From Ancylothrix sp. D3o (GTDB taxonomy: Bacteria > Cyanobacteriota > Cyanobacteriia > Cyanobacteriales > Oscillatoriaceae), in assembly GCF_025370775.1 (NCBI RefSeq), contig NZ_JAMXEX010000007.1, positions 1-64,000 of the forward strand: a DNA stretch of 64,000 nt, given 5' to 3'. Shown here one piece after another: positions 55,589-64,000 of the stretch. The notes below the pieces were generated by a model, which had not been told where the DNA came from, did no database searches, and saw only the letters and a list, made by a program, of their open reading frames with translations. The position numbers and the translations under genes were made by a program. Numbering within the stretch: position 1 is the stretch's first letter; each line of letters opens with the position of its first letter.

Positions 55589-56242
55589 ATGAGTGACAGC
55601 ATGGCATTTGTAGCAGGCGCAGCCGTTGCTGGGATTGCGGCGCTCCTCTTGTTTCGCGGAACTGGTAATCCGCTAGAAAATTCTCCACCTCCCAATTTAG
55701 TACCGTCCCCTCCGGCGGCGGTTCAGCCACAACCTACACCCCTGCCGGTGCCGACAACACCGACACTCAATCCGGTGCTTGAGCAGCAACGCCTTGATAT
55801 AGAAAAACTCAAAGCTCAATTAGAACAGCAACGCAACGATGCTGAGCAGCTACGCCAACAACTTCGCAATCAACAAATAACCCTTGAAGCGGTGCGATCA
55901 CAGGCATCCGTCAATGCGTTAAACCCGCCACCAATCGCGCCACCGGCACTTCCGACCACCCAACCACAGCCGGCAAATAATTCTTCAATTGGTTCGGCAA
56001 TGTTGTGGGCGCTGGCCGGCATGATTTTAACATTGGTGATTGGCATTGTCGTAGTGGTAGCTTTTGCCTTATTTGCCCAGCAACAACGGCCCAGCCGTAC
56101 AGTGCAAGTCATTCAACCCATGCAGTATCCCCCTTCGCTTCCGGCCAGACGCCGGCAACAGTTTCAACCACCTCGAATGCGAGATAGCTCTGAGCGTTCG
56201 CTTCGCTATCGGGAGCGATTTGATACAGAAGATTTTGAATAA
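55589..56242 (+). CDS. Two-helix membrane protein with coiled coil, unknown function
   Basis: A 217-residue protein without recognised family. It has a hydrophobic N-terminal helix (AFVAGAAVAGIAALLLF), a Pro-rich stretch, a coiled coil at about residues 63-100 (LDIEKLKAQLEQQRNDAEQLRQQL), a second Pro-rich stretch, a strong membrane helix at about 140-162 (LWALAGMILTLVIGIVVVVAFALFA) and a basic Arg-rich tail. ATG at 55589 is used; an in-frame TTG at 55568 falls inside the CRISPR-like repeat. The Pro-rich linkers and coiled coil suggest a structural or tethering role. A strong terminator follows. Confidence 0.7.
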   Translation: MSDSMAFVAGAAVAGIAALLLFRGTGNPLENSPPPNLVPSPPAAVQPQPTPLPVPTTPTLNPVLEQQRLDIEKLKAQLEQQRNDAEQLRQQLRNQQITLEAVRSQASVNALNPPPIAPPALPTTQPQPANNSSIGSAMLWALAGMILTLVIGIVVVVAFALFAQQQRPSRTVQVIQPMQYPPSLPARRRQQFQPPRMRDSSERSLRYRERFDTEDFE

Positions 56243-56295
56243 TTTGTCATTTCTAAAATCTAAAAAGTGTGTTAGTGAAATGCCGGCCAAATAAA

Positions 56296-56326
56296 AAGCC
56301 TCCCCTGATTTGGGGGAGGTTTTTTT
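56296..56326 (+). terminator. Strong terminator between convergent genes
   Basis: CCTCCCC (56299-56305) pairs with GGGGAGG (56313-56319) around a short loop, followed by TTTTTTT on the plus strand; AAAAA on the left side also suits the convergent petA transcript. Confidence 0.85.
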
Positions 56327-56420
56327 GTGTCAAATTTTCGCTACAAATTTCTAAAAGTTGGTTGGTTTCGAGTCACCAGTCACCTGTAAGCAGTCACTAA
56401 TCACCAGTCCCCAATTAAGC

Positions 56421-57407
56421 TTAGAAATTCATTTCGGCGGCTTGGACTTTCTCGACTTGTTTCTTCTTCAAAACCAAGAAGATTTGAGTAATCGTCACAA
56501 TGCCAAAGAAAGCTAATAAACCTTGAATGCGACCAGAACTTTGCAAGACAATTTCGGTGTCAATTTGACCAAAACCGCCAACGTTGGGGTTAGCATTTAA
56601 AGGTGAACCGGCAGCAATTTCTTGCCCTTCAGAAACCACCAACTCAGGGCCGGCGGGAACGTTATCAACAACGGTTTTGCCATCAGCGGTTTGAATGCTG
56701 ACTTGATAACCGCCTTCTTCTTGCTGGGCAATTTTGGTAATTGTACCGGCAGCAGAAGCGTTATAAATTGCATTGTTGGTTTTTTCGCCGGTGGGATAAA
56801 TTTGACCGCGACCGCGATTTCCGCCAACGTGGATAGGATATTTCCCGTAATGGATATTTTTATCGGTTTCGGGATTCGGAGACAGCACCGGGAAAATTAA
56901 TTCTTGGTATTGTTCACCGGGGAGAGGGCCAATGATAACAACGTTATCTTGTCCTTCGGCGTAAGGTTGATAATAAAGCCCTTCGATTTTTTCCTTCATT
57001 TCTTCAGGAATGCGATCTTCGGGGGCAATTTTAAAGCCTTCGGGTAACATCAAAACGGCACCGACATTCAGGGGCCCTTTGCTACCATCGCCCAAAACTT
57101 GCTGGTTGTTGGTGTCGTAAGGAATTTTAACGACGGCTTCAAATACGGTATCTGGCAAAACTGATTGAGGAACTTCAACTTCGGTGGGTTTGGCACCGAG
57201 GTGGCAGTTGGCGCAAACAATGCGACCGGTTGCTTCGCGGGGCGTTTCTGGGGCTGTTTGCTGCGCCCAAAAGGGATAGGCAGCAGCGGACTGAGGCAGG
57301 GCTAGGTCACTGGCTAAGAAGATGACGACAGTTGCAGCGGCGAGTAATACGCTTTTGACAACGGCCTTATATCCCAGCAACATCACCGACAAACGAGTTC
57401 TTTTCAT
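56421..57407 (-). CDS. petA: Cytochrome f, apoprotein
   Basis: Cytochrome f of the b6f complex passes electrons from the Rieske protein to plastocyanin or cytochrome c6 on the lumen side of the thylakoid. The 328-residue precursor has a leader with hydrophobic core [18 protein letters not shown] cleaved before YPFWAQQ, whose Tyr amino group ligates haem. The CANCH haem-attachment motif follows, and the C-terminal anchor is [24 protein letters not shown] at 57407 gives a normal leader; a longer frame to 57455 runs into the heptamer repeats and is rejected. It is downstream of petC in the standard petCA order. Confidence 0.98.
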
Positions 57408-57442
57408 CTCTAAAAATGGCAAGATTTCAGCAATAACGGTCA

Positions 57443-57503
57443 AATGATTTGTCATTGGTCATTGGTCATTTGCCTAATGACTATAGACAAAGGACTAATG
57501 ACG
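57443..57503. repeat. Heptanucleotide repeats between petC and petA
   Basis: Degenerate tandem units (TTTGTCATTGGTCATTGGTC, then CTAATGACTATAGAC) fill most of the 101-base petC-petA spacer. They are transcribed if petCA is one operon. Confidence 0.75.
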
Positions 57504-57508
57504 ATTTT

Positions 57509-58048
57509 TTAGGCCCACCAGGGGTCATCACCTGTACGGAAGTCGGTTTCTGTCCAGGGTGTGAAGGCAACTTTGTCGTCGGCGACGTTGGCGTGGACAA
57601 GAGCCAACGACAGGGGGGCCGGCCCGCGTACCACTTTGCCGGTGCTGTCATACTGGGAACCATGACAGGGACACATGAATTTGTTTTCGCTGGCGTTCCA
57701 AGGTACCACGCATCCCAGGTGGGTGCAAACGGCGTTGATGCCATAGTTGGCAATGGCTGAGGAGCTTTCCACGACTATATAGGTGGGGTCTCCTTTTAGC
57801 CCTTGCGCTAGAACACGTTCGCCGGTGTTGTGGGTCTCCAAAAAGTTGCTGAGGCTGATGTCATTGCCCAAGGCATCTTTGGCTGTGACACCACCGCCGC
57901 TGCCGCCAGAGGAGGGGGGAATGAAGTATTTAACGACGGGATAGAGTGCGCCCAATGCGGTGCCGGTGAGGGAGCCAAACATGAGCAGGTTCATAAACTG
58001 CCGACGACCCATGCTGGGTACGTCTGATGATCCAGAAACTTGAGCCAT
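57509..58048 (-). CDS. petC: Cytochrome b6f Rieske iron-sulphur protein
   Basis: The 179-residue Rieske subunit carries the 2Fe-2S cluster that takes electrons from plastoquinol. The N-terminus has a twin-arginine-type signal anchor ([32 protein letters not shown]), followed by a Gly-rich hinge (SSGGSGGG) and the soluble domain. The cluster motifs are CTHLGCV and CPCHGSQYD. The Rieske protein is a known substrate of the Tat pathway, and a tatC gene lies about 900 bases away. It is the first gene of petCA and divergent from the DUF3067 gene. Confidence 0.98.
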
Positions 58049-58253
58049 GACCTATGCTGAGCTATCTGTTAAGTTATTTGTCTAATTCAACCATTTAACC
58101 ATGCTTTTTTGGCCTCGACTGCAAGCAGTCTTTGATGCCTCAAAGTTGGTGCTGATACTGCTATTGCTTTCACAATGCAGGTTACAGCTTTTCTGTGAGT
58201 ATTATTGCATTTTTTTAAGACTCGACGTTTTTCTTAATAAATGTAAATTTATT

Positions 58254-58281
58254 TTGAGATATTTTCACACTCTGGTATAAT
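58254..58281 (+). promoter_or_regulatory. Promoter candidate toward the DUF3067 gene
   Basis: TTGAGA (58254-58259) and TATAAT (58276-58281) are 16 bases apart, with TGG just before the -10 box. The start would leave a leader of about 210 bases. Confidence 0.45.
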
Positions 58282-58460
58282 TACTTTTTTTAATTATTAG
58301 CTTAACTGACTTGCCCAAAAGCAATGAAGGCTTGACGGACACCGGCTAGGAGCCGAATTGCTGAAAAGTATGCTCCCAAAGCATTTGAGTTGAAGGATGT
58401 TAACGCTTGACTACAATAGCGTTTTACAATCAAACATGGTTGCTGCCAAACCGACGGGCA

Positions 58461-58497
58461 AAAAATCTAAAATCTAAAATCTAAAATCTAAAACTAA
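58461..58497. repeat. Perfect heptamer repeats (AATCTAA) before the DUF3067 gene
   Basis: Four consecutive copies of AAATCTA-type units end two bases before the ATG, so no normal ribosome site is present. Shorter runs of the same unit lie near 13600-13640, 29055-29085 and 56253-56268. Confidence 0.8.
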
Positions 58498-58498
58498 T

Positions 58499-58816
58499 AT
58501 GACCGGCAACGACTTACGCGAACTGTTGCTGAATAAGTGGGGACGCTCTTATGATGTCCAACTGCGCCGCACTCAAGGCAAAATTTTTGTGCAGGTAATG
58601 TGGAAGTACCTCGAGCAAGTTTCGTTTCCGATGACGGAGCCGGAATATGTTTCTCATTTGGATACGATTGCTGGTTATTTACACGCTTGGGGTGCGGTGG
58701 AGCAGGTGGAGCGCTATATCCGCCAAACAAGGGAACGTCCCCGCTTGGGTAAGGCGGTGAGTATTCCGATTGATTTGGGTGAGCGTGCTTCGGAATGGTT
58801 GCTGGAACAGTTTTAG
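58499..58816 (+). CDS. DUF3067 family protein
   Basis: A 105-residue soluble protein of the DUF3067 family, found in cyanobacteria and plastids, with no ascertained function that I can name. Landmarks: LRELLLNKWGRSYDVQLRRTQGKIFVQVMWKYLEQ at the N-terminus and LDTIAGYLHAWG in the middle. It is divergent from petC and convergent with tatC. That position beside cytochrome b6f and Tat genes suggests a link to thylakoid electron transport or to Rieske biogenesis, but this is inference from neighbourhood. AATCTAA repeats abut the start. Confidence 0.85.
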   Translation: MTGNDLRELLLNKWGRSYDVQLRRTQGKIFVQVMWKYLEQVSFPMTEPEYVSHLDTIAGYLHAWGAVEQVERYIRQTRERPRLGKAVSIPIDLGERASEWLLEQF

Positions 58817-58913
58817 GTGAGATTTTTTCAGCCTCTCATCCATAACATAAGCTTTTAAGGCAAACAAATTTCAAAAAAATGTCGCTGCTATAGCCTGGTT
58901 TGTCCTCAGAATT

Positions 58914-60329
58914 TTAGCGTCCAAGGAGCATGACGGCGCCGGTGCCGCCGAAGTATAAGCCAATAACAGCACCGGCCAATAACATTTGAGTAATAGGATC
59001 TGTGGACGGGGTGAGGACGGCACCTAAAACTGCTCCTCCAAGTAAGACGTAACGCCAGCCGCTTAACATTTGTTTTGAGGAGACAATGCCGAGTAATCCT
59101 AGTAACATTTGGATGACTGGTATTTGAAAGGCTAGGCCGGTGCTGAGCATTAAAAGTAAGACGAATTCAAAATAGCGATCAATTGATAATAATTGCTCGA
59201 CTACTCCTTCTCCATAGTTGATTAAAAAGTTTAAGGCTGCGGGTATAAGGGCTATATAAGAAAATGCAAGTCCTGCTACAAATAAGATGCTGGAACCAAA
59301 AACAATCGGGGCTAAAAACCGGCGTTCGCGTCTGGTTAAACCAGGAATGACAAATTGGATGATTTGGTAAAGTATGAAGGGTGTAGCGAGTAATATTCCA
59401 CTATAGGCGGCGGTTTTTACGGAGACGAAGAAATATTCGCCTGGGGCTATTTGAATAAATTTAACGTTTTGGGCCGGCACTTCTAAGAATTGGACAATGG
59501 GTTTGACGGCAAAAAAGCTTCCACCGGCTGCAATAACTACTGCTAAGACTGAGTAAAAAATGCGTTCTCGTAATTCTTCGAGGTGGTCAAATAAGGACAT
59601 TTCTACATCGTCGGGAATGTCGCTGAGGTAATCATCTTCTGGGAGTGATGTAATGTCTTCGGATGTGCTTGGTGATGCTAGGGCGAGGGTGGTAGGGGAT
59701 GCTGGGCTGATTGGGTTTTCTTCACTTTCATAATTTTCTAAGTTTGTGGGTTCTAAATAGCTGTTTTCTAAGGCTTCTATGGTGCTTTGACTGATGGCCG
59801 GTGGTAGTATTTCTGGTATTTGTTCTTCTTCCTTATTTTGTTCTTCGGAAAAATTTTCCACTTCCCCAATATTGTTATTTTCGGGGGATAAAATTTCTTC
59901 TTTGGTTTCGCTGTTTTGTTCGGTCGAAATAAGTTCTGATTCTGAGATATTGTTTTCTGGCGTAATGTGATTTTCTGGAATTTCTAAATTTGTAGGAATT
60001 GGTGCCGGTGTGGGTGGGAATGTTGTTGTGCTGTAAGCTAAGGCTTGTTCAAGGGCTACGCTGTTAATTAATTCGGCGATTTTTGCTTGAATTTGAGCGT
60101 CTGCAATTTGGGCGGGATTGTAATTTATGATGATGGATGCGGCGGTGCGGTTGATGCGGGTGCCGGTGATTGAGGAAAGATTGTTAAGGGCTTTTTCTAA
60201 TCGTTCTGTGTAGTCTGGATCTTCGGAAATAAGGGGGATATTGAAGCGAATTCGTCCGCGAATGGCGTGGACGATTTTATAAGAAATGTTGGGGGCGGAT
60301 GGTGAGGAGTTATTGTAGGTTTGAGACAT
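58914..60329 (-). CDS. tatC: TatC with an N-terminal HMA-like domain and acidic linker
   Basis: TatC is the receptor of the twin-arginine translocase that moves folded proteins across thylakoid and plasma membranes. The last 228 residues, from [14 protein letters not shown] at 244, are a normal TatC of six helices with [10 protein letters not shown] and [10 protein letters not shown]. The first 243 are unusual. Residues about 15-95 resemble the HMA-like fold seen at the N-terminus of some metal ATPases ([33 protein letters not shown]) but have no metal-binding CxxC. Residues 105-240 are acidic, Pro/Ser-rich and probably disordered. An internal start at residue 244 (59600) could also yield plain TatC. 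It follows a binding-protein gene by 26 bases. Confidence 0.93.
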
Positions 60330-60355
60330 GATTTGATAGAGGATAATTGTAGTTT

Positions 60356-61306
60356 TTAGGGATTTTGAGTTGGGCGAGAGGGAAGGTTAAAATTTTGGGG
60401 GGTAAGGGTGTCTTGTGTTAGGGGTAAACCCCAATATTGGAGCCGGTTTTCTAACCATCCTTCTGCTTTCCAGGCTTGGATTGCATAGTTTACTTCTAAG
60501 CGTAAGTTAGCATATTGGAGCCCTTTTGGCATGGCGATGCTAAGGGGTTCTGCTGTGAGCAAGGTGGGTAAAATATGATATTCTGGGTTTTCTTGTACCC
60601 AACCGGCTAGAATGCTGGCATCACCGGCAAAGGCGGTGGCTTGTCCTTGTTCGATGAGGGTTTTGGCGTTTTGGTAGGAGTCGGTGCCGAGTAGTTTGGC
60701 GTTGGGGATAAAGTATTTGATGTTGGCAATGGTGTCGGAGTTGTTGAGGACGACGATTGTTTGGTTACTGAGATTTTGGAGGTTTTTGATGTTGGGGTTT
60801 TTGGTGATGATGCCGGCGCCGTCTAGGTAGTAAGGGATGCTGAATTCTACAAGCCGGCCTCTTGTTTCTGTGGCGGTGAGGCGGGCAATTGTGAAGTTAA
60901 CTTTTTCTTCTAAAATGACTTTGAGCCGGTCTTTATTGGAAACGGGGATAAGTTCTACAGCATCGGGGTTTCCATAGAGTTCTTCGGCTAATTTGTGTGC
61001 AATATCTATTTCTAAGCCTTGGAGGGTTGCGGTGTTGTCTCGAAAGCCAAGGGGACGGATGTTGTCTTTAATGGCGATTTTGAGTTGGGTTGGTTTTTGC
61101 TGAAAGGGGGTGCCGGTGGCGCTGAGAAAGGGGTAAAAAGTTGTTAAAAAGCTAAAGAATAAAGCAATTAAAAATAGGCTTAGAAAGCTAATCGATGAAA
61201 AAAGGGGTGTTTTGATTTGTTGGGGTTTGATTGTGGCCTGGAAAACCCGAAGTTTCTTTAAGAAAGGGGGGTTTTTAAAGATAGCGTATAGGAAATGTTT
61301 TTTCAT
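60356..61306 (-). CDS. Family 3 solute-binding protein (polar amino-acid type) with membrane anchor
   Basis: A 316-residue protein. A basic N-terminus and a hydrophobic helix ([21 protein letters not shown], about residues 40-60) precede a periplasmic binding domain: [38 protein letters not shown], then [31 protein letters not shown] and [11 protein letters not shown]. It may bind amino acids or related solutes. No lipobox is visible and no permease or ATPase gene is adjacent. ATG at 61306 is used because longer frames overlap rplT and its terminator. It ends 26 bases before tatC on the same strand, so the two are probably cotranscribed. Confidence 0.85.
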
Positions 61307-61318
61307 AGAAACGCTAAT

Positions 61319-61348
61319 AAAAAATATTCCCAGACTTGTGCCTGGGAA
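61319..61348 (-). terminator. Terminator after rplT (minus strand)
   Basis: Read on the minus strand, TTCCCAG and CTGGGAA form a stem followed by TATTTTTTA, between rplT and the binding-protein gene. Confidence 0.75.
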
Positions 61349-61367
61349 CGATAGAAAGCCGAGAGTT

Positions 61368-61721
61368 TTATTTAGCTTGAGCGGCCATTTCAACGACTTT
61401 GTTAAAGCTTTCTGCATCAAGGACTGCGAGTTGAGCCAGCATTTTACGGTTGAGTTGAATGTTGGCTTTTTTCAACTTGCCGATGAGTTGGCTATAGCTC
61501 ATGCCGTGCTGACGGGCTGCGGCGTTGATGCGGGTGATCCAGAGGCGGCGAAAATCGCGTTTGCGACGTTTGCGGTCGCGGTAGGCGTTGCGTAACGCCT
61601 TCATTACCTGCTGGTTGGCTGTACGGAACAGTGTGGAGTGGCTGCCGCGATAGCCTTTGGCGATTTTGAGAATTTTATTGCGGCGTTTGCGGGCTACATT
61701 ACCGCGTTTGACTCTGGTCAT
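61368..61721 (-). CDS. rplT: Ribosomal protein L20
   Basis: L20 binds 23S rRNA and is needed for early assembly of the 50S subunit. The 117 residues start [19 protein letters not shown], very basic, and include [17 protein letters not shown] and [18 protein letters not shown], all typical. It follows rpmI by 19 bases. The usual bacterial infC gene is not upstream, which is common in cyanobacteria. Possible feedback by L20 on its own messenger cannot be judged from sequence. Confidence 0.98.
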
Positions 61722-61740
61722 GGGTGGGTTTCCTTAGATT

Positions 61741-61938
61741 TTACAAATACGGGAGCATTCCGCGCACGTTGTCGGCATCGCGTTCATCAACGAGGGCCAT
61801 TTTGCCGAGGTTGCGTTTGCGGTCTGCGCTTTTGTGTTCGAGAAGGTGGCTTTTGAAGGCTTTCCGGCGCATGATTTTGCCGCTGCCGGTGGCTCTAAAA
61901 CGCTTGGCGGCTGCTTTGCGGGTTTTTAGTTTAGGCAT
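61741..61938 (-). CDS. rpmI: Ribosomal protein L35
   Basis: L35 is a small basic protein of the 50S subunit. The 65 residues begin [20 protein letters not shown] and include [17 protein letters not shown], matching the family. It is the first gene of the rpmI-rplT pair. Confidence 0.98.
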
Positions 61939-62040
61939 GGTCTATTAATATTTAGACACAATTCCCTATCTTATCATGGATTAGGTTTTTTGGCAAATGC
62001 TCAAGTTGGGGGTCGGCATCTGTGGCGCCGGCGTTCCCTG

Positions 62041-62068
62041 TAGAGCAGGCGGGACGCCTGCACCACTG
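62041..62068. repeat. Short palindromic repeat (AGCAGGC / GCCTGC)
   Basis: AGAGCAGGCGGGACGCCTGC is an inverted repeat related to the one at 313-331, in the upstream region of the ABC-F gene. Confidence 0.5.
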
Positions 62069-62180
62069 GCGTCTACAGGTTTGGATGAGGTGGGGCCGGC
62101 ACCAGTCCCCTTAATTACGGTAGGCTTATAAATAATGGCCTGATTTTTTGATTTCCCAGAGTTTGGATGGAGTTTGGTTG

Positions 62181-63890
62181 ATGCTGAGATTAGAACATAT
62201 TAGTAAGGTTTACCCCACCGGCGAAGTGCTTAAAGATGTGAACTGGGAAGTCAAACCTGGGGATCGAATTGGTTTGGTGGGGGTTAATGGTGCGGGAAAA
62301 TCTACGCAACTTAAGATTATTGCCGGTGAAGTCGAACCGAGTTCGGGTGTGGTAATTCGACCGGCTAGTTTGCATATTGCTTATTTAACTCAAGAGTTTG
62401 ATGTTGATCCAACTCGGACGGTGCGCGAGGAGTTTTGGACGGTTTTTAAAGAAGCAAATGATGTGCAGCATGGACTCGCACGGGTTCAGCGAGAAATGCA
62501 AACGGCGACGCCTGAAGAGTTGGATAAATTGATTCACGAGTTGGATAGATATCAGCGCAAGTTTGAGGCGTTGGATGGGTATGGTTTGGATGCGCGAATT
62601 GAGAAAATTTTGCCGGAGATGGGTTTTGAACAGGAGGATGGCGACCGGCTGGTGAGTGCGTTTAGTGGCGGCTGGCAAATGCGGATGAGTTTAGGAAAAA
62701 TTTTGCTACAAGATCCTGATTTGCTGTTGCTGGATGAACCGACTAACCATTTAGATTTGGAGACGATTGAGTGGTTAGAAAATTATCTGCGGGGGTTAAT
62801 GATTCCGATGGTAATTGTGGCGCATGACCGGGCTTTTTTAGACCGGCTTTGTACGCAAATTGTAGAGACGGAGAGGGGGGTTTCTACGACTTATTTAGGT
62901 AATTATTCGACGTATTTGCAACAAAAAGCTGAGAATAAGATGGCGCAGTTGTCGGCTTATGAACGGCAGCAAAAGGAGATTGAAACTCAGCAGGCTTTTG
63001 TGGAGCGTTTTCGGGCGAGTGCGACGCGGAGCACGCAGGCAAAAAGCCGCGAGAAGCAGTTAGATAAGATTGAGCGTATTGAGGCTCCGATTTCTGATGT
63101 GCGGACGTTGAAATTTCGTTTTCCTGATCCGCCTCGGAGTGGTCGAGAGGTAGTTATTATTGAGGATTTGGTGCATTCTTATGATGAAAAGATTTTGTTT
63201 TTGGGTGCAGAGTTGTTGATTGAACGGGGCGACCGGGTGGCTTTTTTGGGGCCAAATGGTTGTGGAAAATCGACGCTTTTGCATTTGATTATGGGGATGG
63301 AAAAGCCGACGGATGGGACGATTAAGTTGGGGGATCATAATGTGATTCCTTCGTATTTTGAGCAAAATCAGGCTGAGGCTTTGGATTTGAGTAAGACTGT
63401 GATGGATACTATCCATGATGAGGTTCCTGATTGGAAGAATGAGGAGGTAAGGACTCATTTGGGCCGGTTTTTGTTTGCTGGGGAGATGGCGTTTAAGAAG
63501 GTGGAGGCTTTGAGTGGGGGTGAGAAGGCTCGTTTGGCGTTGGCTAAGATGCTTTTGAAGCCGGCAAATTTGTTGATTTTGGATGAGCCTACGAATCATT
63601 TGGATATCCCGGCTAAGGAGATGTTGGAGGAGGCTTTAAAGAGTTATGAGGGGACGGTGATTTTGGTTTCTCACGACCGATTTTTTATTTCGCAGGTTGC
63701 TAATAAGATTGTTGATGTTCGTGATGGGGAGTTGCGGTTATATCGGGGGGATTATCAGTATTATTTGGATAAGGTTGCTGAGGAGAAGGAGAAGGCGAAG
63801 TTAGATAAGATTGCGGCGGAAAAGGCTGCGAAGGCTGAGGCGAAACGGGTGGCGCAGAAGGAGAAGTTGAAGGGGAAGAAGGGTAAGTAA
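62181..63890 (+). CDS. ABC-F family ATPase (Uup/EttA-like)
   Basis: A soluble protein of 569 residues with two ATP-binding cassettes and no membrane part, as in ABC-F factors that act on the ribosome. Cassette 1 has GVNGAGKST (about 37-45) and FSGGWQMRM with LLLLDEPTNHLD. A charged linker (about 245-300) joins to cassette 2, with GPNGCGKST and LSGGEKARLALAKMLL, LLILDEPTNHLD. The C-terminus is a Lys/Glu-rich coiled coil, as in Uup-like members. ATG at 62181 was chosen; the frame's earlier TTG at 62148 adds eleven residues with no family support. Its exact subtype cannot be set by eye. A terminator follows. Confidence 0.93.
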   Translation: MLRLEHISKVYPTGEVLKDVNWEVKPGDRIGLVGVNGAGKSTQLKIIAGEVEPSSGVVIRPASLHIAYLTQEFDVDPTRTVREEFWTVFKEANDVQHGLARVQREMQTATPEELDKLIHELDRYQRKFEALDGYGLDARIEKILPEMGFEQEDGDRLVSAFSGGWQMRMSLGKILLQDPDLLLLDEPTNHLDLETIEWLENYLRGLMIPMVIVAHDRAFLDRLCTQIVETERGVSTTYLGNYSTYLQQKAENKMAQLSAYERQQKEIETQQAFVERFRASATRSTQAKSREKQLDKIERIEAPISDVRTLKFRFPDPPRSGREVVIIEDLVHSYDEKILFLGAELLIERGDRVAFLGPNGCGKSTLLHLIMGMEKPTDGTIKLGDHNVIPSYFEQNQAEALDLSKTVMDTIHDEVPDWKNEEVRTHLGRFLFAGEMAFKKVEALSGGEKARLALAKMLLKPANLLILDEPTNHLDIPAKEMLEEALKSYEGTVILVSHDRFFISQVANKIVDVRDGELRLYRGDYQYYLDKVAEEKEKAKLDKIAAEKAAKAEAKRVAQKEKLKGKKGK

Positions 63891-63914
63891 TTTTTGATTG
63901 ATTTTTAGATGGGT

Positions 63915-63950
63915 AAGGCTCGCTTTGGCGGGCTTTTTTTTTTGTTTTTT
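63915..63950 (+). terminator. Terminator after the ABC-F gene
   Basis: AAGGCTCGC and GCGGGCTT form a stem with a short loop, followed by a long T run. Confidence 0.85.
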
Positions 63951-63956
63951 GGGGAT

Positions 63957-63984
63957 TTGAAGTGAGGGAAGTTTGATGTATAAT
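63957..63984 (+). promoter_or_regulatory. Promoter candidate at the right edge
   Basis: TTGAAG (63957-63962) and TATAAT (63979-63984) lie 16 bases apart, reading out of the window. The gene it would serve is not visible. Confidence 0.35.
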
Positions 63985-64000
63985 GAAAATCAAAGAGTCT

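Follow-up and report, generated by a model that had tools for sequence, protein, structure and literature searches.

An HMA_2 domain on an acidic tether is fused to TatC in a few cyanobacteria and may serve as a cytoplasmic docking arm of the Tat receptor

TatC, the core of a machinery by which folded proteins are exported, is highly conserved, and its N-terminus is located in the cytoplasm. The tandem TatC of haloarchaea (TatCt) is also a natural TatC fusion; it is composed of two TatC units and does not contain a soluble domain. According to the available text of one study, the N-terminus of TatC binds the signal peptide together with the first loop of the protein, and the complex contains three copies of TatC (PMC13186574). 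A search of the open-access literature found no accessory domain on TatC, and nothing on a fusion of HMA with TatC, on the family PF19991, or on unusual TatC proteins of Microcoleus. The TatC encoded in the window, which is the whole analysed stretch of 64,000 nucleotides from Ancylothrix sp. D3o, has a 243-residue N-terminal extension that consists of an HMA_2 domain and an acidic, largely disordered linker, and is followed by a complete TatC (Table 1). Both domains were known before, and their combination is a new architecture of a known family.

The sequence-only reading of the locus had described a full-length TatC behind 243 added residues in an open frame, an N-terminal HMA-like domain without CxxC, and an acidic Pro/Ser-rich stretch of about 140 residues, and this description was confirmed. 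The TatC profile PF00902 matches residues 248–452 with 221.7 bits (cut-off 25.1, E 1.1e-65) over positions 1–206 of 208, and TIGR00945 (tatC) reaches 259.8 bits, with a cut-off of 132.7, over its complete length (1–215 of 215). The comparison of residues 1–100 with Pfam and structure databases, which had been suggested as a check, identified HMA_2 (PF19991) with 47.9 bits (cut-off 30; profile positions 9–80 of 154) and the HMA domain of CopA. The second half of the PF19991 profile is unmatched not only in the window fusion but also in other members found here, for example in a P-type ATPase matched at 10–81. Aspartate and glutamate form 20% of the linker, lysine and arginine 1%, and proline, serine, and threonine 34%. 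In the AlphaFold2 model of the whole protein, the block means of pLDDT in the HMA domain (residues 21–90) are 95–97, and pLDDT is below 50 at residues 112–181 and 191–231. Besides the fusion, no TatC gene was found in the genome of Ancylothrix sp. D3o, which is 95.7% complete and contains two TatA_B_E matches over the cut-off. Judged by this gene content, the fusion should therefore serve as the TatC of the cell, whatever the function of the extension.

Table 1 Coordinates of the fusion, its parts, its neighbours, and related genes in other loci. Positions without a locus name are those of the window.
Feature	Location	Strand	Basis or remark
HMA_2–linker–TatC fusion gene	58914..60329	-	471 aa, ATG start, frame open
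HMA_2 domain, residues 18–89	60063..60278	-	Pfam, AF2, alignments to CopA/ATP7B
Acidic Pro/Ser/Thr-rich linker, residues 91–230, net charge -26	59640..60059	-	composition, pLDDT
Acidic TatC N-tail, residues 231–243	59601..59639	-	resembles tails of non-fused cyanobacterial TatC
TatC core, residues 244–471	58917..59600	-	Pfam and TIGR00945
Extracellular solute-binding protein family 3	60356..61420	-	upstream neighbour, ends 26 bases ahead of fusion ATG
DUF3067 protein	58499..58816	+	neighbour
petC (Rieske protein, GRRQF near N-terminus)	57509..58048	-	neighbour
petA (cytochrome f)	56421..57455	-	neighbour
LL protein, G002	L055:2527-4461		
LL protein, window genome	L054:9670-10725	-	without HMA1
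HMA_2 P-type ATPase, window genome, contig C12	L054:12379-14631	-	TIGR01525, 523 bits
190-aa ORF adjoining LL, G002	L055:4434-5006	-	HMA_2 cluster
Fusion of G005	L067:6311-8044	+	in-frame lack of 53 residues
TatC of G008	L026:1093-2223	+	acidic tail, without HMA_2
TatC of G407	L063:1719-2789	-	acidic tail, without HMA_2

The fusion is rare. Among 388 genomes drawn from the order, it was found in four at E 1e-126 or better, a threshold below which a strongly diverged fusion could score. The carriers are the window genome and three genomes (G002, G005, and G007) of the genus that holds Microcoleus vaginatus, and the same four carry it among the eight genomes analysed from the family. In each of the four, the fused gene is the sole TatC found. 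The family members G001, G003, and G004 have TatC without the HMA_2 part, and the TatC match of G006 covers only residues 397–470, apparently because it is cut by a contig end. In an evenly drawn sample of 388 genomes of the class, which did not include G002, G005, and G007, 376 genomes match the fusion at E 1e-60 or better and twelve do not; among the matches listed, only that of the window begins before query residue 132. Matches of non-fused cyanobacterial TatC to the window fusion begin past the HMA_2 part. An artefact of assembly or reading frame was rejected, since HMA_2, linker, and TatC are joined in frame in three other genomes, which also argues against a chance fusion. The sequence-only reading had named absence or a frameshift of the extension in relatives as evidence against it. 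Absence was found in G001, G003, and G004, and the extension is in frame in the three Microcoleus-genus genomes, which together indicate a real, lineage-specific feature.

Long frames at TatC in five further genomes (G163, G397, G407, G110, and G367) were considered as fusions and rejected after reading of their first approximately 60 residues, which resemble an ordinary TatC start or a longer acidic tail. In G163 and G397, a stop codon separates the upstream ORF from TatC in the ORF listing, and a Pfam search of G407 (L063) and G008 (L026) identified TatC alone. The TatC of L063 has about 120 acidic residues before the core methionine, and the 149-residue acidic tail of that of L026 contains near-repeats of a VSNLEDEEV-like unit. 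The number of residues ahead of the equivalent of Met244, counted from the first in-frame ATG, is 24–61 in 34 of the 35 non-fused loci measured and 149 in L026. This does not agree with the expectation that cyanobacterial TatC starts within about 20 residues of its first helix. The 35 loci were selected from 53 by leaving out the window copies (L001 and L002), the fusions (L003–L005 and L032), copies and near-copies of loci already counted (L025, L031, L033, L035, L037–L040, and L049), two loci cut by contig ends (L024 and L053), and L043, which has no upstream ATG. Elongation of acidic TatC tails seems to have occurred at least twice in cyanobacteria.

The gene order in the window is L20, solute-binding protein, HMA_2-tatC, DUF3067 on the opposite strand, petC, and petA. 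The order in G003 is that of the window minus HMA_2, with one extra gene after tatC that resembles a PAS/kinase gene. As recognised by resemblance, tatC of G001 and G004 is also preceded by a gene like that of a solute-binding protein, with petC downstream. The fusions of G002 and G005 are instead preceded by a large gene for a histidine kinase on the opposite strand, and a PAS/histidine kinase gene, a DUF3067-like ORF, petC, and petA follow downstream (the kinases of G002 were identified by Pfam). No RNA families were found at positions 56000–64000. Between positions 58800 and 61800, there are five promoter-like sites, compared to 4.3 in shuffled sequences, and four terminator-like sites, compared to 3.5.

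The fusions of the Microcoleus genus are composed of an HMA_2 domain (HMA1), a hydrophobic stretch, a second HMA_2 domain (HMA2), the acidic linker, and TatC, and their frames begin at an ATG with a Shine-Dalgarno-like sequence and extend over 350–403 codons before the core methionine. The window fusion contains one HMA_2 domain and lacks both HMA1 and the hydrophobic stretch. The fusion of G005 lacks the 53 residues that span the hydrophobic stretch between the HMA_2 domains. In the window genome and in G002, HMA_2-domain proteins, including the scaffold-like protein LL, are encoded next to an HMA_2 P-type ATPase, which itself bears an HMA_2 domain. LL of G002 is formed by HMA_2, a hydrophobic stretch, HMA_2, a long acidic linker, and a short C-terminal module. 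LL and the Microcoleus fusions thus have the same order of domains, but LL ends in its own module and the fusions end in TatC. The N-terminal part of the G002 fusion is 51–52% identical to LL of G002 and G005 over 287–290 aa (E about 1e-91), and the DNA ahead of the start codon is similar in the fusion and LL (ttggagtggaga and ttggaatggaga, respectively). As judged from these alignments, the N-terminal part of the Microcoleus fusions is a diverged copy of LL, a paralogue in which TatC replaces the C-terminal module. LL of the window genome lacks HMA1, in parallel with the TatC fusion of the window. The ATPase of the window genome does not contain CPC before DKTGT (the stretch is LDFATGIRVSVP) and has only two cysteines in 750 aa, although by TIGR01525 it is classed as a P-type ATPase for heavy metals. 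Pfam gave no match to the 190-aa ORF that adjoins LL in G002 (E up to 0.01).

The first domains of the fusions group with the first domains of LL (support 98/92) in a tree built from 43 HMA_2 domains. The same tree, which is based on 82 columns and has long branches, places neither the second domains nor the window HMA_2 firmly. The window HMA_2 is located apart from the Microcoleus domains, although a single clade is not rejected (p-AU 0.35), and its best BLAST match is LL of G002 with 49% identity, compared to 43–44% for the fused Microcoleus domains. The window and Microcoleus fusions may therefore have been formed separately. In contrast, a tree of the TatC core and PetC (18 rows, PetC for seven) unites the four fused proteins in a clade with support of 97/97, which fits a single fusion event in their common ancestor, and the fusion probably arose in this way. 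In such a case, HMA1 and the hydrophobic stretch would have been lost in the lineage of the window.

The HMA_2 domain of the window and HMA2 of the Microcoleus fusions are 44–47% identical, with pN of 0.37–0.38 and pS of 0.77–0.82, at which synonymous sites are saturated. The local score of the window HMA_2 against that of G007 is 193, whereas the maximum of 2000 shuffles is 47. The similarity of the linkers of the same two proteins is no better than that of shuffles, as 61% of 2000 reach the score, and the linkers of the fusions preserve a length of 122–140 residues and a net charge of -18 to -26. Therefore, the domain has been preserved as a folded unit and the tether as a charged one, but not in its sequence. 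Part of the HMA_2 conservation would predate fusion if the fusions of the window and of Microcoleus arose separately. Omega values were calculated by the Nei–Gojobori method for pairs among the three Microcoleus genomes, with bootstrap intervals. They are 0.21–0.23 for HMA1, with intervals below 1; 0.24 for the hydrophobic part in one pair; 0.30–0.74 for the spacer before HMA2, with intervals that include 1; and 0.33–0.53 for HMA2, where the interval excludes 1 in one of three pairs. The values for the linker, TatC, and the LL gene are 0.44–0.55, 0.01–0.05, and 0.37, respectively. Evidence of selection is stronger in the window–Microcoleus comparison than in the omega values within Microcoleus.

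We propose that the LL-derived HMA_2 fusion has been kept by selection as a cytoplasmic docking arm of the Tat receptor for a putative partner, a reading that we favour and that seems to us about equally apt to be right or wrong. A docking role is suggested because the domain is under selection and the usual metal ligands are absent from it. The cytoplasmic orientation of the extension, proposed earlier, is supported by the established topology of TatC, and the recruitment of a partner, suggested along with it, is the putative function that we favour. Since the cytoplasmic N-terminus of TatC binds the signal peptide together with the first loop, the arm would be held on its flexible acidic tether at the cytoplasmic mouth of the receptor, near the signal-peptide site. 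It may be a module, derived from the LL scaffold, that docks to a protein or a membrane, and may hold the Tat receptor beside a putative partner at the cytoplasmic face of the membrane. A receptor would carry three such arms if the complex contains three TatC. As a counterpoint, HMA2 is less constrained than TatC in Microcoleus, and not every fusion has HMA1 and the hydrophobic stretch, since the window fusion has neither and that of G005 lacks the stretch.

The same counterpoints would be expected if the extension were a tolerated passenger, that is, an accidental in-frame HMA_2 fusion without a role in export on a TatC that accepts N-terminal additions. The linker, which diverges as if unconstrained apart from its composition, and the long acidic TatC tails of other cyanobacteria, such as that of L026, are also in agreement with a passenger. 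However, the identity retained by HMA_2 at saturated synonymous sites, the score far above that of the shuffles, the frames that are open in four of four fusions, and the omega values of HMA1 all argue for constraint, with the caveat that the conservation of HMA_2 partly predates fusion if the fusions are separate. We therefore consider a passenger unlikely.

The putative partner of the docking arm could be specifically the complex of the HMA_2 P-type ATPase, next to which Tat receptors would thus be placed. A gene next to that of this ATPase encodes a paralogue of the fused part, and the ATPase bears an HMA_2 domain of its own. The genomes G001–G006 encode homologues that are 73–77% identical to the ATPase of the window genome. 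In contrast, the best match in G007 is another P-type ATPase-like frame with 37% identity, and both HMA_2 matches of this genome are located inside the TatC fusion. However, G007 corresponds to a metagenome-assembled genome, 99% complete, and its lack of the ATPase cluster could come from a gap in the assembly. G007 thus has both fused HMA_2 domains and no HMA_2 ATPase was seen in it, which makes specific docking to the pump improbable. The arms seem not to need that pump, and the HMA_2 ATPase is probably not their sole partner. Neither the origin from the LL scaffold nor retention without the pump was found in the open-access literature search. HMA_2, an offshoot of metallochaperone domains, can leave the context of P-type ATPases, which suits docking better than the transfer of metal.

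The HMA domain was also modelled alone from 25 sequences, with a mean pLDDT of 88.5. The order of elements in the model is strand-strand-helix-strand-strand-helix, and the first helix consists of two segments. A phmmer search of the PDB matched the window domain to the HMA domain of CopA (1p6t, E 1.3e-7), and the profile of the HMA_2 family matched ATP7B; the E of this match, 4.6e-11, is that of the whole chain and adds up repeats that each fall short individually. Structural matches of the model include the N-terminal extension of CzcP (Z 9.5), ATP7B (9.2), CopZ (8.8), and PacS (8.4), but ferredoxin-like folds other than HMA tie with them, namely the S6 permutant (9.8) and 2phc (10.2). A Foldseek search with the model found nothing at or below E 0.001. 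The fold match alone is not decisive, and the HMA assignment rests on the sequence matches to CopA. According to the model and these matches, the window domain has the HMA fold. The sequence-only reading was thus right about the fold, but the motif HAIRGRIRF on which it had relied corresponds to a hairpin at the N-terminus of the model, away from the position of the metal loop. In 25 aligned sequences of the family, GRxR is invariant at the glycine and at both arginines.

The CxxC of ATP7B and CopA aligns in HMMER to E36-D-P-D-Y40 of the window fusion. The equivalents of the two cysteines are E36 and D39 in the alignment with ATP7B, or D37 and Y40 in that with CopA, by extension, as the alignments differ by one residue. 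The position of the CxxC of classical HMA domains is thus occupied by EDPDY, and, with an E limit of 1, the classical profile PF00403 was not matched by the window protein. The 471-residue fusion does not contain any cysteine, and the only histidines of the extension are His21 and His121. The domain probably does not bind metal via CxxC, and the lack of cysteines makes metal delivery unlikely. It had been suggested that the extension helps metalloprotein cargo such as the Rieske protein. An arm that handles metal would use HMA_2 to bind or sense metal, and would aid such cargo or check the loading of cofactors. Tat exports cofactor-loaded proteins, petC is the second gene downstream of the fusion, and the fold matches are to domains of the HMA type. 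Nevertheless, petC is close to tatC also in relatives without HMA_2, and the residues described above do not support help for metalloprotein cargo; we regard a metal-handling arm as very improbable.

The core of the fusion starts with Met244, and it had been proposed that initiation at this codon produces a second, short form of TatC. All 52 loci that span this position (L001–L052, among them those of the window and near-duplicates) have a methionine there, preceded by an acidic tail, and an in-frame ATG lies further upstream in 50; L024 is cut and L043 has only GTG or TTG. The pairing energies with the anti-Shine-Dalgarno sequence in the window are -1.1 kcal/mol for Met1 and -1.6 kcal/mol for Met244, neither of which is clear. 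In the Microcoleus fusions, the energy of the core methionine is -2.3 to -2.4 kcal/mol, whereas that of a far-upstream ATG is -6.9 kcal/mol in all three, and one other internal methionine of G005 reaches -6.6 kcal/mol. In 13 non-fused loci, the values range from -0.9 to -7.0 kcal/mol for the core methionine and from 0.1 to -8.6 kcal/mol for the first ATG, and this wide overlap means that the test separates little. Coexistence of a long and a short TatC is highly improbable, since Met244 is evidently a conserved residue and the Microcoleus signals are stronger upstream, even though the complete Pfam and TIGR matches lie in the core, the core methionine is Shine-Dalgarno-like in some non-fused loci, and the unclear signals of the window leave initiation at Met244 possible.

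A lineage-specific domain that is under selection and tethered by the signal-peptide site would be a natural experiment on whether Tat receptors can gain extra arms that select substrates or sites. The TatC of Oscillatoria sp. PCC 10802 (L007/L035) is a non-fused counterpart with a similar acidic tail; its core is 69% identical to the window fusion over query residues 194–471 (L007), and its gene has a solute-binding protein-like gene upstream and petC downstream, as in the window. The HMA domains of CopZ, CopA, ATP7B, and PacS have the ferredoxin-like fold and detectable sequence similarity in common with the window domain, which differs from them in the lack of CxxC, in an extra N-terminal strand in the model, and in GRxR that is invariant in its family. 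The N-terminal extension of CzcP (4u9r) is an HMA-like match over 73 residues, with rmsd 2.3 and 20% identity. This extension belongs to a metal pump, whereas the HMA_2 domain of the window sits on an export machine.
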